Shown piece after piece: positions 8,235 to 51,428 of a stretch of 64,000 nucleotides of DNA (its first letter is position 1; each line of letters starts with the position of its first letter). The notes below the pieces were generated by a model. It saw only the letters and a list, made by a program, of their open reading frames with translations. It was not told where the DNA came from and searched no databases. The DNA is taken from NCBI GenBank assembly GCA_025936825.1, contig JAICSO010000007.1, positions 124,001 to 188,000 on the forward strand, in the 5' to 3' direction. A program made the translations under genes and the position numbers. This DNA comes from Terriglobales bacterium (GTDB lineage: Bacteria; Acidobacteriota; Terriglobia; Terriglobales; Acidobacteriaceae).

Positions 8235-9428
8235 ATGAGGATCAGAGGCATCTCCGAAATGATTCTGAAGCGCCTTTCGCGCGAGACGACGTCAGGTAGA
8301 TTCATCCCCGAACTGGATGGATTGCGATTCGTGGCGATCGCAATGGTGATCCTGTATCACCTGAACGGATACCTGACCGCGAAGACGAGCTTTTATGAGC
8401 ATGGGGCGCCGCCGGATTGGCTGTGCCGCGCAGCGCTGGTGGGAAACCACGGAGTCGAACTCTTTTTCGTAATTAGCGGGTTCATTCTGGCGCTCCCGTT
8501 TGCGGCGTACCATCTGAAGCAAGACCGAGCGGTCAGCCTGCGCGCTTACTATTTGCGTCGATTGACGCGGTTGGAGCCGCCGTACTTCGCAACCATTTTC
8601 CTGTTGATGCTGTTGGGCGCGGTAATGACGCGAACGCTCACGTTACCTCTCAATGGGCACCTGCTCGCCAGTTTGTTTTATATGCACAACTTGGTTTATG
8701 CAGCCCCGAGCACTGTGCTGGGAGTCGCATGGTCGCTGGAGATCGAAGTGCAGTTCTATGTCCTGGTACCGATTCTGACGCTGGTGTTCACGATCTCGGA
8801 CAGCCGAGTGCGAAGGGCAGTGCTGGTAACAGCGATGGTGTCGTTCCTTGTACTTCAGGCAATATTTCTCGGCGGATATTCGCATCCGCGGCTTTCGATC
8901 TTGAATTATTTGCAGTTTTTTCTCCTCGGATTCCTGCTCGCTGACTTGTTTCTGACCGAGTGGGCCGCGCCGCAAAAACGCACTTACCTTTGGGATTGCG
9001 TTTCGATCGCCGGTTGGCCGCTTTTGTTCTTCACACTCCAGTTTCCGACACTGGCGCATTGGGTATTCCCAGCCCTGCTGTTTGTGCTGTATGTGGCGGT
9101 ATTTCGGGGAATAGTGAGCAATCGCCTGATCTCAATCCCCTGGGTCACTGCAGTCGGGGGCATGTGCTATTCCATTTACCTTATTCACTACGAAGTGATT
9201 TCTGCCGTAGGACGCGTTACGAAGAGGATCGGCCAGCAGTTGCCGAACCCGGCGTATCTTGCACTTCAGTTTGTATTAGTCGGGACTGCCATCGTTCTCG
9301 TTTGCGGAGCTTACTTTGTGCTGCTGGAAAAGCCATGCATGCGGCGAGACTGGCCGAAGAGGGCGTGGGGTTGGATCTGCGAATATCTTCCGGCACGTGA
9401 GCGGAAAACGAGACCAGTCGAGGCATAG
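8235..9428 (+). CDS. acyltransferase 3 family membrane protein
   Basis: IPELDGLRFVAIAMVILYHLNGY and multiple TM helices. Confidence 0.88.
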   Translation: MRIRGISEMILKRLSRETTSGRFIPELDGLRFVAIAMVILYHLNGYLTAKTSFYEHGAPPDWLCRAALVGNHGVELFFVISGFILALPFAAYHLKQDRAVSLRAYYLRRLTRLEPPYFATIFLLMLLGAVMTRTLTLPLNGHLLASLFYMHNLVYAAPSTVLGVAWSLEIEVQFYVLVPILTLVFTISDSRVRRAVLVTAMVSFLVLQAIFLGGYSHPRLSILNYLQFFLLGFLLADLFLTEWAAPQKRTYLWDCVSIAGWPLLFFTLQFPTLAHWVFPALLFVLYVAVFRGIVSNRLISIPWVTAVGGMCYSIYLIHYEVISAVGRVTKRIGQQLPNPAYLALQFVLVGTAIVLVCGAYFVLLEKPCMRRDWPKRAWGWICEYLPARERKTRPVEA

Positions 9429-9433
9429 TCTGA

Positions 9434-9468
9434 ATTTCAGATTGCTGATTTCAGATTGCAGATTGAAT
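9434..9468. repeat. heptamer array, left arm: ATTTCAG ATTGCTG ATTTCAG ATTGCAG ATTGAAT
   Basis: Five consecutive 7-nt units read directly; inverted relative to 9868..9902. Confidence 0.9.
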
Positions 9469-9484
9469 CTAGCGCAATGTCGAT

Positions 9485-9859
9485 TCACGCTGCGCGAAGT
9501 CCCTTTACGGTCCGGAGAGAAGCCACAAAAATCGATACCAGTTCGTTAGCCTCTCGCAAGGCGAACCCGACCTTTTCTCGCGGGAAAATTCCGCCCTCTA
9601 CAAGAAGTTCGAGCCAGAAACAGGACTCGTCGGCTTCCTCCAAAACTATTCCGAGCTTGGACGTAAAGTCTGCGGTTGAACGCGCACGACAAACGGCACG
9701 ATAATTTGCGGCAACCGATGTTGCAGATCGCAGCAGTTGACGGCAGATGATGCGTGATTCTTCGGTCCGCGGCGCTGCCCGACACAAGCGAAGAACAAGC
9801 AGTGCAAATTCTTTTGTTCGTTTCTTTAGAGCCTGGGCATCAATCGCGGAGGCAGTCAT
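9485..9859 (-). CDS. four helix bundle protein (23S rRNA intervening-sequence protein / S23-like family)
   Basis: RTKEFALLVLRLCRAAPRTEESRIICRQLLRSATSVAANYRAVCRARSTADFTSKLGIVLEEADESCFWLELL is characteristic of the family; ATG at 9859. The track start at 9877 is TTG inside the repeat arm. Confidence 0.88.
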   Translation of the reverse strand: MTASAIDAQALKKRTKEFALLVLRLCRAAPRTEESRIICRQLLRSATSVAANYRAVCRARSTADFTSKLGIVLEEADESCFWLELLVEGGIFPREKVGFALREANELVSIFVASLRTVKGLRAA

Positions 9860-9867
9860 ACGGTTCT

Positions 9868-9902
9868 CAATCTGCAATCTTCAATCTGAAATCTGCAATA
9901 AG
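9868..9902. repeat. heptamer array, right arm: CAATCTG CAATCTT CAATCTG AAATCTG CAATAAG
   Basis: Five 7-nt units, reverse-complementary in consensus to the left arm. Confidence 0.9.
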
Positions 9903-9927
9903 AAATGTACTCTCCTTCAAACCGTAC

Positions 9928-13199: not shown

Positions 13200-13433
13200 C
13201 ATTTCAGCAGTGGGCACTCAGACAAAAACGACGAGTGCTGGAACTCGAGGCAATACCTTCGGGGCGTTAGCGGTTGAATTCCTATAACCGGGCTCTTTCA
13301 TGGCTGAATGCTGATTGCTGATTGCTCAGCAGCCGGCAATCCTCTTCTCGCGCAACCATCGCCTTGCCCTTCGCTATAATGACTGTTTGCGCTTGGCTCA
13401 GCTCCCCAGTAAGAGCCACCCTGGAAGGAACCC

Positions 13434-17368: not shown

Positions 17369-17461
17369 AGCTATTAGCTCTTAGCTGTTAGCTCTTAGCT
17401 GTTAGCTCTTAGCCAAACCCAAATCAGGTCGCTAAAAGCTAAGAGCTAAAAGCTCAGAGCT
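17369..17461. repeat. heptamer inverted array pair: (AGCTVTT)x6 ... GCTAAAA GCTAAGA GCTAAAA GCTCAGA
   Basis: Six left and four right 7-nt units around an ~20-nt spacer, between rsmB and rpiA. Confidence 0.93.
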
Positions 17462-20172: not shown

Positions 20173-21129
20173 CTAGTGGCCCAGTGGTTCGTTCAGATTT
20201 ACTTTGTACCCATTGGCGAAATCGCGAACAGGCATTCTTTTTCTTCCTTCCGGCTGCACTTCCAGAAGCTCGAGTACCGTGCCTTCACCGCAGCCAACAA
20301 ACACCTGAGCTCCACGCACCAGCACCTGACCTTCACTAGCTCCCGATGCCCCATTGGGTAAAGTCGCCGGCCTCGCTGCTGTCACGCCCAGCGTCTTTCC
20401 GCGAAATGTCGTGAACGCGCCGGGCCAGGGCTGAAAGCCGCGCAGGCGGTTGTAGATTTCCTGGGCGGTGCGAGTGAAGTCGATGCGGCCATCCTCTTTG
20501 GTCAGAATCGGAGCGAGGCTCGCTTTCGCGTGATCTTGCGGCTGCGGGGTAATCGTTGCAGCTTGCAGGCGCTGCAGACTTTCAATCATCAACTCGGCGC
20601 CGAGCGCGGCGAGGCGAGGAGCAAGCGTCTCGGACGTATCGTCGTCGTTGATTGGGAGGTCTTGTTGAAGCAGCATATCTCCTGTGTCGAGACCTTCATC
20701 AATTCGCATGACAGTCACGCCAGTGACTTTCTCGCCGCTCGCGATTGCCCACTGAATTGGGGCTGCGCCGCGGTATTTCGGCAGCAGCGAGGCGTGGAGA
20801 TTGATGTTGCCGTAGCGCGGCAGATCCAGCATCCATTTGGGGATGATGCGGCCATAGCCGACGACAATGATGGCATCGGGCGTGATCTCGCGCAGGCGGG
20901 CCTGCAGTTCCTCGTTGGTCTTGATCTTTTCGGGCTGATAGATCGGCAGGTTGTGGCCAACTGCTGCTTGCTTTACGGGTGATGCGACAAGTTCGAGGCC
21001 GCGTCCTTTGGGACGGTCCGGCTGAGTGAGGACGAGACGAACCGCGTGGCCGGTCGCGACAAGTTTCTCGAGCGTGGGTACGGCGAATTGAGGGGTACCG
21101 CAGAAAACGAGATTGAGAGATTGAGACAT
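20173..21129 (-). CDS. fmt: methionyl-tRNA formyltransferase
   Basis: LNLVFCGTPQFAVPTLEKL, NLHASLLPKYRGAAPIQWAI. Confidence 0.95.
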   Translation of the reverse strand: MSQSLNLVFCGTPQFAVPTLEKLVATGHAVRLVLTQPDRPKGRGLELVASPVKQAAVGHNLPIYQPEKIKTNEELQARLREITPDAIIVVGYGRIIPKWMLDLPRYGNINLHASLLPKYRGAAPIQWAIASGEKVTGVTVMRIDEGLDTGDMLLQQDLPINDDDTSETLAPRLAALGAELMIESLQRLQAATITPQPQDHAKASLAPILTKEDGRIDFTRTAQEIYNRLRGFQPWPGAFTTFRGKTLGVTAARPATLPNGASGASEGQVLVRGAQVFVGCGEGTVLELLEVQPEGRKRMPVRDFANGYKVNLNEPLGH

Positions 21130-21190
21130 TGAATCATTGAATCATTGCAGAAAATGACTCAATCGCTCAATGATTCAATGACTCAATTCT
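21111..21190. repeat. period-8 inverted array pair: GATTGAGA GATTGAGA CATTGAAT CATTGAAT CATTGCAG ... TGACTCAA TCGCTCAA TGATTCAA TGACTCAA
   Basis: Five left and four right 8-nt units; left arm overlaps the fmt start codon. Confidence 0.92.
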
Positions 21191-21707: not shown

Positions 21708-21855
21708 AGTTTCGAGTTTCCAGTTTCAAGTCCCCGGCTTCGGTGCAGTCCTTTGCCAAACGGCTCAGCGAAGTCGCAAAGTCCTAAGTTTCAAGGTTTC
21801 AAGTCGACGAAACGGCAGGGAACTCGAAACTAGAAACTCGAAACTAGAAACTTTT
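21708..21855. repeat. heptamer inverted array pair: AGTTTCG AGTTTCC AGTTTCA ... AACTCGA AACTAGA AACTCGA AACTAGA AACTTTT
   Basis: Direct reading of units; right arm supplies the aroC stop codon. Confidence 0.88.
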
Positions 21856-24645: not shown

Positions 24646-24735
24646 GATTGCAGATTCCAGATTGTAGATTGCCGATTTCGCTACTCCAATCTGCAATCTA
24701 AAATCGTCAATCTGAAATCTTCAATCTACAATCTC
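24646..24735. repeat. heptamer inverted array pair, CAGATTG/CAATCTG family, no ORF
   Basis: GATTGCA GATTCCA GATTGTA GATTGCC GATTTCG ... CAATCTG CAATCTA AAATCGT CAATCTG AAATCTT CAATCTA CAATCTC. Confidence 0.93.
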
Positions 24736-43137: not shown

Positions 43138-43608
43138 ATGCTGCAATCCAACGACGCAACGAAACCGAGCTTCACACCATCAACCCCGAACCAGCTCACG
43201 CCGGTTAAGACCATGACCTCGCCGATCGAGCAGGCCACGATTGGACGCACGGTTGTGATTAAAGGCGAAATCAGCGGCAATGAGTCGCTGTACATCGACG
43301 GCCGCGTCGAAGGCAGCGTGACCTTCAAAGATCATCGCGTGACGGTTGGACGCAATGGCGTCGTGCAGGCGAACATTTCAGCGCGCGAAGTCGTGATCAT
43401 GGGCAAAGTCACCGGCAACGTTGAGTGCAGCGATCGCGTGGACATCCGTAGCGAAGGCACCCTGACCGGCGATGTGGTCAGCGCGCGCATCAGCGTGGAA
43501 GATGGCGCTATGCTCCGCGGCAGCGTGCAGCTCAATCCGACCGAGCAGAAGCAGGACAAGAGCCACGATGCGCCGAAGGCGATGGCAGCAGCGGCGGGAA
43601 AGAACTAG
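43138..43608 (+). CDS. bactofilin (polymer-forming cytoskeletal protein)
   Basis: TIGRTVVIKGEISGNESLYIDGRVEGSVTFKDHRVTVGRNGVVQANISAREVVIMGKVTGNV. Confidence 0.93.
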   Translation: MLQSNDATKPSFTPSTPNQLTPVKTMTSPIEQATIGRTVVIKGEISGNESLYIDGRVEGSVTFKDHRVTVGRNGVVQANISAREVVIMGKVTGNVECSDRVDIRSEGTLTGDVVSARISVEDGAMLRGSVQLNPTEQKQDKSHDAPKAMAAAAGKN

Positions 43609-43631
43609 TCGCTAGTGACTAGTAGAAGCTC
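43604..43631. repeat. heptamer array, left arm: ACTAGTC GCTAGTG ACTAGTA GAAGCTC
   Basis: 7-nt units; contains the bactofilin stop codon; inverted relative to 44105..44139. Confidence 0.85.
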
Positions 43632-43728
43632 TAGCTCCCGCAAGACACATCTCCGAAACGGGAACTCGTCCTAAGTTTTCACATCTTTTGTTCTCCGACA
43701 GCAGCTCTTGAAGCGCATGCTCAAGGGC

Positions 43729-44117
43729 TGCTGGAGAACAGTACGCCTTTACGTCAGTATCAAGAACTCATCGGCTGGAAGAAGAGCAGGGCTCTCGTTG
43801 CCGAAATCTACCGCCACACACAGAGCTTTCCCAAAGATGAAATGTACGGTTTAACCGGTCAGCTTCGTCGTGCTGCGGTTTCGATACCCAGCAATATCGC
43901 AGAAGGTCAGGGGCGGCTCACCCGCGGAGAATTCAAGCAGTTTCTCGGCCATCCGCGCGGTTCTACCTTCGAAGTAGAAACGCAATTGTTGATCGCAGAA
44001 GACCTTGGATATCTCGAGAGAGAATCGACTCAGCGCTTGCTTGATCAAGTTCAGGAAGTTGGTAGGATTCTCAATGCGCTGTTGGCTTCACTCGATCGCG
44101 TCCGCACTAGCCACTAG
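43729..44117 (+). CDS. four helix bundle protein (23S rRNA intervening-sequence protein / S23 family)
   Basis: In-frame reading LLENSTPLRQYQELIGWKKSRALVAEIYRHTQSFPKDEMYGLTGQLRRAAVSIPSNIAEGQGRLTRGEFKQFLGHPRGSTFEVETQLLIAEDLGYL; start codon uncertain, track begins at 43842. Confidence 0.85.
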
Positions 44118-44139
44118 CCACTAGCCACTAGTCACTTCT
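44105..44139. repeat. heptamer array, right arm: CACTAGC CACTAGC CACTAGC CACTAGT CACTTCT
   Basis: Five 7-nt units; contains the stop codons of both flanking convergent ORFs. Confidence 0.92.
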
Positions 44140-44535: not shown

Positions 44536-44660
44536 AGCTCTTAGCTGTTAGCCTTTAGCTCCTAGCCAAACCATAATTTTAACCGCAAAGATTGCCGAGG
44601 TCGCAGAGCCCAGACAATGTGGTCCCAGCTAGAAGCTAGAAGCTAACGGCTAAAAGCTTG
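44536..44660. repeat. heptamer inverted array pair: AGCTCTT AGCTGTT AGCCTTT AGCTCCT ... AGCTAGA AGCTAGA AGCTAAC GGCTAAA
   Basis: Direct reading; upstream of lexA; same family as 17369..17461. Confidence 0.9.
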
Positions 44661-47031: not shown

Positions 47032-47065
47032 GGAGAGATTGTAAAGGGGAAAGGGTGTGTCGGGC

Positions 47066-47174
47066 TTCAGGTTTCAGGTTTCAGGCAGTCAGACCCCGTA
47101 TCCACCAGTCAGTTACAGCGCTTAGAACCTGAAACCTGAAACCTGAAACCTGAAACCTGAAACCTGAAACCTGA
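47066..47174. repeat. heptamer inverted array pair: TTCAGGT TTCAGGT TTCAGGC ... (AACCTGA)x7
   Basis: Seven perfect AACCTGA copies at 47126..47174. Confidence 0.95.
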
Positions 47175-49541: not shown

Positions 49542-49806
49542 TTCACCACAGAGGCACAGGGGCACAGAAAAACACAAAACTCAAAAATATAGGTATGTCA
49601 TTCCGAACCGCTTCAGCGGTGAGGAATCCGCTTCTTCCTGTGCCCGATCGAAAGCAGGTTCCTCACCGCTGAAGCGGTTCGGAATGACACCGTAAAGAAC
49701 GATTCGTAATCCGCAAAAGATCTGCACATCCACAAAAGATCTGTGCATCCGCAAACAACGGACTCCGAACGCCCCCCCTGGCTCTTCGTCGTGCCCCCGT
49801 GGTGAA
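49542..49806. repeat. nested inverted-repeat element (outer TTCACCACAGAGGCAC.../GTGCCCCCGTGGTGAA; inner perfect 31-bp TGTCATTCCGAACCGCTTCAGCGGTGAGGAA)
   Basis: Inner arms 49596..49626 and 49659..49689 are exact reverse complements. Confidence 0.9.
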
Positions 49807-51325: not shown

Positions 51326-51428
51326 GATTGAATCATTGAATCATCGGGGGATTGAGTAATTGAGAGTGGGCAGTACGGGACGTAGTAGGCATTGATTCAA
51401 TGATCCGATGAGTCAATGATTCAATTCC
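51326..51428. repeat. period-8 inverted array pair: GATTGAAT CATTGAAT CATCGGGG GATTGAGT AATTGAGA ... TGATTCAA TGATCCGA TGAGTCAA TGATTCAA
   Basis: Same family as 21111..21190. Confidence 0.9.

Follow-up and report, generated by a model that had tools for sequence, protein, structure and literature searches.

Heptamer-armed hairpins carrying S23-like four-helix-bundle genes: a candidate DNA element of Acidobacteriaceae and other bacteria

Proteins of the TIGR02436/PF05635 family are widespread in bacteria, and their function is not settled. We found that the genes encoding them are almost always enclosed by two arrays of tandem heptamers complementary to each other, both in a window of 64,000 nucleotides (assembly GCA_025936825.1, contig JAICSO010000007.1, positions 124,001 to 188,000) from a Terriglobales bacterium of the Acidobacteriaceae and elsewhere in its genome and in other phyla. 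The copy from which the analysis started is probably a complete representative of a bacteria-wide hairpin element, in which an S23/Avd-like gene lies in the loop of inverted YRG-N4 arrays; the protein would grip the DNA and host machinery would propagate the whole. The analyses demonstrated the unit, its polarity, the five-anchor arms, an association with the protein family that is nearly universal, presence/absence and inversion when orthologous sites of different species are compared, joint change of the arms, and a coupling between hairpins and gene in abundance and type. These findings point to a hairpin element that is widespread in bacteria and has so far been undescribed.

Gene-bearing copies in the window, the genome and other phyla

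The element occupies positions 9434-9906 of the window, between an acyltransferase gene and purN. Its open reading frame (9485..9859, minus strand, ATG at 9859, 124 aa) encodes an S23-like four-helix-bundle protein, which scored 76.9 bits against TIGR02436 (cut-off 24) and 48.4 bits against PF05635 (cut-off 33.8) and is thus a family member by the curated cut-offs of both profiles. The 5′ arm in the sense of the ORF (9868..9906, minus strand), a heptamer array of the AGATTGC / AGATTTC type, lies directly upstream of the start codon, and the 3′ arm (9434..9465, minus strand) is a complementary array reading CAATCTG / GAAATCA on the minus strand. Direct reading yielded ATTTCAG ATTGCTG ATTTCAG ATTGCAG ATTGAAT for the left array (9434-9468) and CAATCTG CAATCTT CAATCTG AAATCTG CAATAAG for the right one (9868-9902). 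With 409 nt between them, the arms 9434-9465 and 9875-9906 show 88% complementarity over their 32 nt, so that the claim of a reading frame between inverted heptamer arrays, made in an earlier sequence-only reading of this DNA, was borne out. A second complete element was detected on the plus strand at 43604..44132, with the arms ACTAGTNNCTAGT (43604-43623) and CACTAGCCACTAG (44113-44132) around a PF05635 ORF match at 43764-44078(+).

The genome (6.54 Mb, 141 contigs) contains eight PF05635 genes, two of them inside the window, and all eight are enclosed by mutually complementary arrays, whose repeats differ from locus to locus (CAGATTG, CAGCCAT, CAGGTTT, TAGTNNC, TTGGTTA, CAGGCGT, GAGCGGT and the octamer ATTGAGTC). 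Comparing 250-nt flanks around a gene-sized gap, a complementarity of at least 15 was obtained for 8/8 genes but for only 3 of 3840 positions of a background that covered 400 kb of the same genome and was not confined to intergenic flanks. The enrichment extends far beyond this genome. Across about 17 phylum-level groups, 62 of 77 scored loci reached a score of 14, compared to 2/630 control windows (0.3%) on the same contigs; these 77 loci were chosen as the best matches to one conserved peptide pattern and therefore do not sample the family at random. In a further sample within the phylum, 22/24 loci were enclosed and none of 216 controls. The weakest group was the Bacteroidota with 12/22, and pooled enclosure, the 22/24 sample left aside, came to 106/128 loci. 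An attempt to refute the pattern on the flanks of other four-helix-bundle genes therefore failed, and its claimed occurrence throughout the family and across phyla was upheld; the heptamer-armed four-helix-bundle arrangement is confirmed as real and general.

Bacterial genes often have inverted repeats close to their ends, and the arrangement could in principle reflect chance, base composition or ordinary terminators beside small genes. The controls refute such a reading, to which we assign next to no probability: enclosure in control windows stayed at 0-0.3%, and period 7 was missing from shuffled sequence, the window having 17 period-7 arrays and five Markov-resampled windows 0-1 apiece. Among periods 4-20 only 7 stood out in the window, together with its 14-nt double. 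As a further control, a small set of other genes (Y1 transposases with eight matches, RT with one) showed heptamer arrays at 0/9 loci; the inverted repeats around this genome's Y1 transposase genes are of a different, GC-rich and REP-like type.

Copy number ranges from 0 to 14 per genome. Some copies are plasmid-borne, and a PF05635 gene is present on Nostoc and Calothrix plasmids; on two plasmids of Calothrix brevissima (L223 and L224) the S23 gene, with the arms AGGGTGT / CTACACCC, lies among genes including a phage-type integrase. The closest copies inside the genome are 71% identical, and no near-identical copies with different flanks were detected among all fetched loci. Recent transposition with exact ends was considered for three near-identical pairs (L223/L224, L283/L284 and L139/L164) and rejected, each pair representing one and the same locus.

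Repeat unit and gene-less hairpins

Despite their different sequences the arrays share the polar consensus YRG-N4. Phasing of 83 sense-strand 5′ arms resulted in the unit R-G-(T)-N-N-(T)-Y, with G in 93% and a preceding A or G in 92%, and a phased profile score of 200 compared to 129-140 in a column-permuted null; 74 of the 83 arms had one polarity. Median array length was 4.6 units. RG anchors at 7-nt spacing showed a sharp mode at five (66/171 gene arms, 22/50 empty hairpins), which was seen on the expected strand only. Only two solved relatives were found, 2GSC and 2RLD, each of them a five-chain structure, and we infer that one protein subunit may bind each heptamer, a pentamer sitting on the array. 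A Mantel test of protein distance against heptamer distance gave p 0.001, and protein pairs below 30% distance had a mean heptamer distance of 0.22 versus about 0.52: related proteins carry related heptamers. The TIGR02436/PF05635 proteins are thus provided with a candidate DNA partner of defined motif, copy number and geometry, which makes their function accessible to a binding assay.

The window also contains hairpins with similar arms and no gene. Small loops were found at 24646..24719 (loop 10 nt, GATTGCA / CAATCTG type, the right array extending to 24734), which has the heptamer type of the 9434-9906 element, at 17376..17461 (AGCTNTT type) and at 21120..21187 (octamer ATTGAGTC type, that of gene copy L007). 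Further gene-less hairpins lie at 21708..21845 (AGTTTCG type, loop 90 nt), 44536..44658 (AGCTNTT type, loop 61 nt), 47060..47153 (CAGGTTT type, as in gene copy L003, the right array extending to 47179) and 51327..51425 (octamer ATTGAATC type). Single period-7 arrays with no obvious inverted partner nearby were observed at 13303, 34653, 42979, 46288, 49491, 57114 and 61066, with the heptamers GCTGATT, CTAGCAA, CCAACAA, GTCGTTG, GTCGTCG, CTGACGG and TACGACC, respectively. Octamer-like CACAGAGG repeats occur at 49547-49568 of the window and at L013:14950-15100, the latter site accounting for one of the rare inverted pairs in the background whose gap is gene-sized.

Hairpins were sampled in 864 kb of the window's genome and in 1.36 Mb over three genomes. 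In the 864 kb, gene-less inverted pairs of arrays, with loops of 10-117 nt, numbered about 28 and often shared their heptamer type with a gene-bearing copy, compared to 4 occupied pairs. In the 1.36 Mb, 8/8 correctly polarised pairs with loops of 300-700 nt coincided with TIGR02436 matches. The sequence-only reading was right in assigning the arms to the ORF as its own, but it missed that hairpins with such arms form a class spread through the whole genome and mostly gene-less. Empty hairpins that share a repeat type have loops of unrelated sequence, except that AAACC...GGTTT recurs immediately inward of some arms; the empties are thus not plain copies of one another, and their origin by simple deletion from a single master copy was ruled out. 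Three gene-less heptamer-armed hairpins with longer loops (185-272 nt) were observed in genome G048 (L265:13097-13452, L266:14625-14921 and L267:8511-8853); the loops of the first and third share the stretches CGTCATTCTG and GAATCCCGGC, perhaps part of another dispersed element.

Array density, taken as the genome-wide count of one degenerate four-unit pattern, followed gene copy number, with a Spearman rho of 0.67 within the family (61 genomes) and of 0.65 for the phylum's other families (108 genomes), or 0.64-0.67 overall, all as correlations with no phylogenetic correction. Gene-free genomes had a median of 0-1.3 pattern matches per Mb. A reversed-pattern control correlated more weakly (rho 0.56), and it correlates at all because it matches other arrays. 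Three genomes (G026, G164 and G128) showed many array matches and no detectable TIGR02436 gene, which might reflect recent gene loss or another driver. Two phylum relatives, G114 and G126, had approximately 2700 and 1900 pattern matches at only 7-9 gene copies and are candidates for active expansion.

The several-fold excess of empty over occupied hairpins (about 28 small-loop pairs versus 4) speaks for an alternative in which the gene is a separate cassette that enters and leaves the loops of pre-existing host hairpins, ordinary repeats serving as its targets. The occurrence of the ORF in both orientations also agrees with it. On the other hand, the protein clade tracks the heptamer type across genera and gene-free genomes mostly lack arrays, and together with the site comparisons below this makes a cassette unlikely in our view.

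Gain, loss and change at orthologous sites

Whole units are present or absent between congeners at orthologous loci. At the window site, tyrS and purN have nothing between them in three congeners, a fourth carries a small hairpin that is empty and whose heptamer type is that of two occupied relatives, and four genomes contain hairpin and gene, on the same strand in this genome and in G027 and inverted in G063 and G064. All relatives holding the gene at this site are armed (L074, L067 and L072), and refutation of the unit by an armless relative failed. The sites of L002, L004, L006 and L007 are gene-free in all congeners compared; a gene-less hairpin stands in place of the gene in 4/6 congeners at the L007 site and in 1/4 at the L006 site. 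At these four sites and the window site presence or absence is clean with intact flanks, as in a mobile element, in support of the proposal that arms and ORF form one unit. Flank identity at the compared sites is 70-80%, too low to resolve target duplications. Furthermore, in five independent sets of sites the ORF points in opposite directions in different species at one syntenic position. From presence/absence and inversion between species we infer that the element is probably mobile. For the cassette alternative these sites cut both ways: the empty hairpin of matching type beside purN and the gene-less hairpins at the L007 and L006 sites favour it, whereas at several sites the unoccupied state is free of any hairpin.

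Two observations concern individual sites. The acyltransferase gene (window 8235-9428) lies between tyrS and the hairpin; in G061, G065 and G066 tyrS directly precedes purN, and this gene may therefore also be a lineage-specific insertion. The gene-free L002 site of G027 (L097, G027:C8:171330-172180) consists of 20 nt and holds CAGCCATCAG, the heptamer of the occupied allele, either as the footprint of a loss or as the seed of a gain. Despite this CAGCCATCAG motif, the coupling of protein and heptamer stands against arms made from target DNA in general.

Between dprA and topA, nine or more genomes from several genera have kept the gene, and the arms change from AGCGGTG to AGCTNTT, GGTTGTC or CCGGGTG. 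Arms of one genome pair with scores of 15-26, compared to means of 9-14 for arms combined across genomes and a background of 9; own arms pair far better than cross-genome arms and, therefore, both arms change together. Such joint change at a fixed site offers a natural model in which to follow the upkeep of complementarity between inverted repeats.

The protein is under purifying selection, with pN 0.12-0.33 at saturated synonymous sites (for the window ORF and its same-site orthologue L074 in G027, pN 0.18 and pS 0.86); selection is accordingly expressed as pN against saturated pS rather than as dN/dS. Strong purifying selection also fits a host function. The hairpins might be host-beneficial, non-mobile loci with a regulatory or nucleoid-organising role, the protein being a resident binding factor, and the long retention between dprA and topA and the lack of near-identical recent copies would agree with this. 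Nevertheless, copies come and go at orthologous sites, range from 0 to 14 per genome, are inverted, reside on plasmids and occupy every kind of intergenic context, and we regard non-mobile host loci as very unlikely.

Mode of action and relation to known systems

In the propagating hairpin that we favour, an oligomer of the protein, a pentamer in the solved relatives, would grip the array as DNA with one subunit per heptamer, the DNA probably being single-stranded or an extruded hairpin during replication. Host replication or repair would then copy, flip and homogenise the arms and spread or delete the loop, and gene-less hairpins would thereby be maintained in trans. Counting against this explanation, the four-helix-bundle family is not known to contain a nuclease or recombinase motif, no transposition event was seen, and the top paralogues are, at 71% identity, unlike those of an active transposon.

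Whether the element acts as DNA or as RNA is of particular relevance, since the sequence-only reading had proposed an IVS-like mobile unit. The intergenic unit with terminal arms was recovered; a strict IVS was not borne out, as the sites read are non-rRNA sites and the arms lack a G-U bias. In the Coxiella 23S IVS an S23 ORF lies in the loop of a 28-bp terminal stem that is cleaved by RNase III (PMC4990558). The window element likewise places an S23-family ORF in a loop closed by a terminal inverted repeat, but it is not inserted into a 23S rRNA helix: it lies between protein genes and gave no Rfam match, no RNA family was matched in the window as a whole, and no rRNA gene was found among the element sites whose flanks were read. 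An RNA element of this type, whose transcribed stem is cut by RNase III to free an ORF-bearing RNA that may spread via an RNA intermediate, would be consistent with the shared protein family and similar anatomy of the Coxiella IVS (PMC4990558) and with the related Avd, the partner of a reverse transcriptase in diversity-generating retroelements (PMC10053308). When the 9434-9906 unit is folded to minimum free energy, its arms do pair as RNA (z -3.2), and they pair as DNA as well (z -2.2). Mismatches in the arms, however, are balanced on the sense strand (98 G-U versus 111 A-C), so that RNA-level selection, tested by this asymmetry, was not found and nothing favours an RNA stem; the balance would fit a process at the DNA level. 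In addition, elements lie in convergent and divergent intergenic regions (L004 and L007 were inspected), where neighbouring transcripts need not cover them, and the single RVT_1 gene of the genome is not in such a hairpin. We therefore consider an RNA element distinctly unlikely and read the element as a REPIN/IVS-like hairpin acting at the DNA level.

Compared with the 23S rRNA IVSs of the Coxiella and Leptospira type, the likeness lies in the PF05635 ORF in a stem loop, a stem of about 28-32 bp and a unit of about 0.45 kb, that is, in protein family, stem and unit size. In contrast, the elements described here are intergenic, occur in many copies per genome along with genome-wide gene-less hairpins of the same repeat, and have arms of locus-specific heptamers with no sign of RNA-level selection. 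In the open-licence literature searched we found no earlier description of heptamer arms around S23/TIGR02436 genes; none of PMC4990558, PMC4476775, PMC4679880 and PMC3936711, the last of which notes PF05635 genes in cas loci, describes them.

REPINs are inverted repeats that occur in pairs around short, variable loops (PMC3116915, PMC8266576), and to that extent the REP/REPIN-RAYT system (TnpA-REP, PF01797) is similar in having a gene flanked by inverted repeats that are also dispersed without a gene. By analogy, the gene may relate to the gene-less hairpins as a RAYT gene does to REP/REPIN palindromes. Unlike RAYT, the protein is not an HUH/Y1 transposase, only TIGR02436/PF05635 having been matched, and unlike REP sequences the arms are tandem heptamers differing between loci rather than GC-rich palindromes with a GTAG/CGTC tag. 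RAYT loci of the known architecture coexist in the window's genome, where long GC-rich inverted repeats with scores of 29-49 and no heptamer arrays lie on both sides of several Y1_Tnp genes (among L269-L276). The arms as ordinary REP/RAYT repeats were ruled out, since the RAYT loci of the same genome carry other repeats. A classical DD(E/D) insertion sequence does not match either, with arms that differ per locus and top paralogues 71% identical. Avd has a homologous four-helix-bundle fold (PMC10053308), but an adjacent reverse transcriptase and a template repeat (TR/VR pair) were not seen beside the gene, and the only RVT_1 gene lies on another contig (C12), which sets the element apart from diversity-generating retroelements.

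Heptamer repeats are known from other bacteria. The P6b stems of the Nostoc trnL intron consist of complementary heptamers TDNGATT or NNTGAGT, classes of which repeatedly replaced each other at one site (PMC4476775), and in these cyanobacterial STRR sequences NNTGAGT, rotated to AGTNNTG, fits YRG-N4. They differ from the elements described here in lying inside a group I intron and in being described with no link to a four-helix-bundle gene. TAACTGA arrays of Beggiatoaceae, cyanobacteria and Bacteroidetes are intergenic, just upstream of genes (PMC4679880); the complement TCAGTTA fits the same consensus, but these arrays are almost all direct, with one inverted pair reported in that genome and no gene linked. 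The resemblances suggest a common origin of heptamer arrays in cyanobacteria, Beggiatoaceae and Acidobacteriota, the Nostoc trnL intron stems and the S23 ORFs in rRNA IVSs. Tentatively, and with considerable doubt remaining on our side, we can envisage a new kind of mobile or self-propagating hairpin DNA, in which each repeat of the tandem-heptamer ends would be recognised by one subunit of a four-helix-bundle pentamer and whose spread and complementarity would be achieved through host replication with no transposase, free-standing S23/TIGR02436 genes, cyanobacterial heptamer stems and 23S IVSs possibly representing branches of one family.
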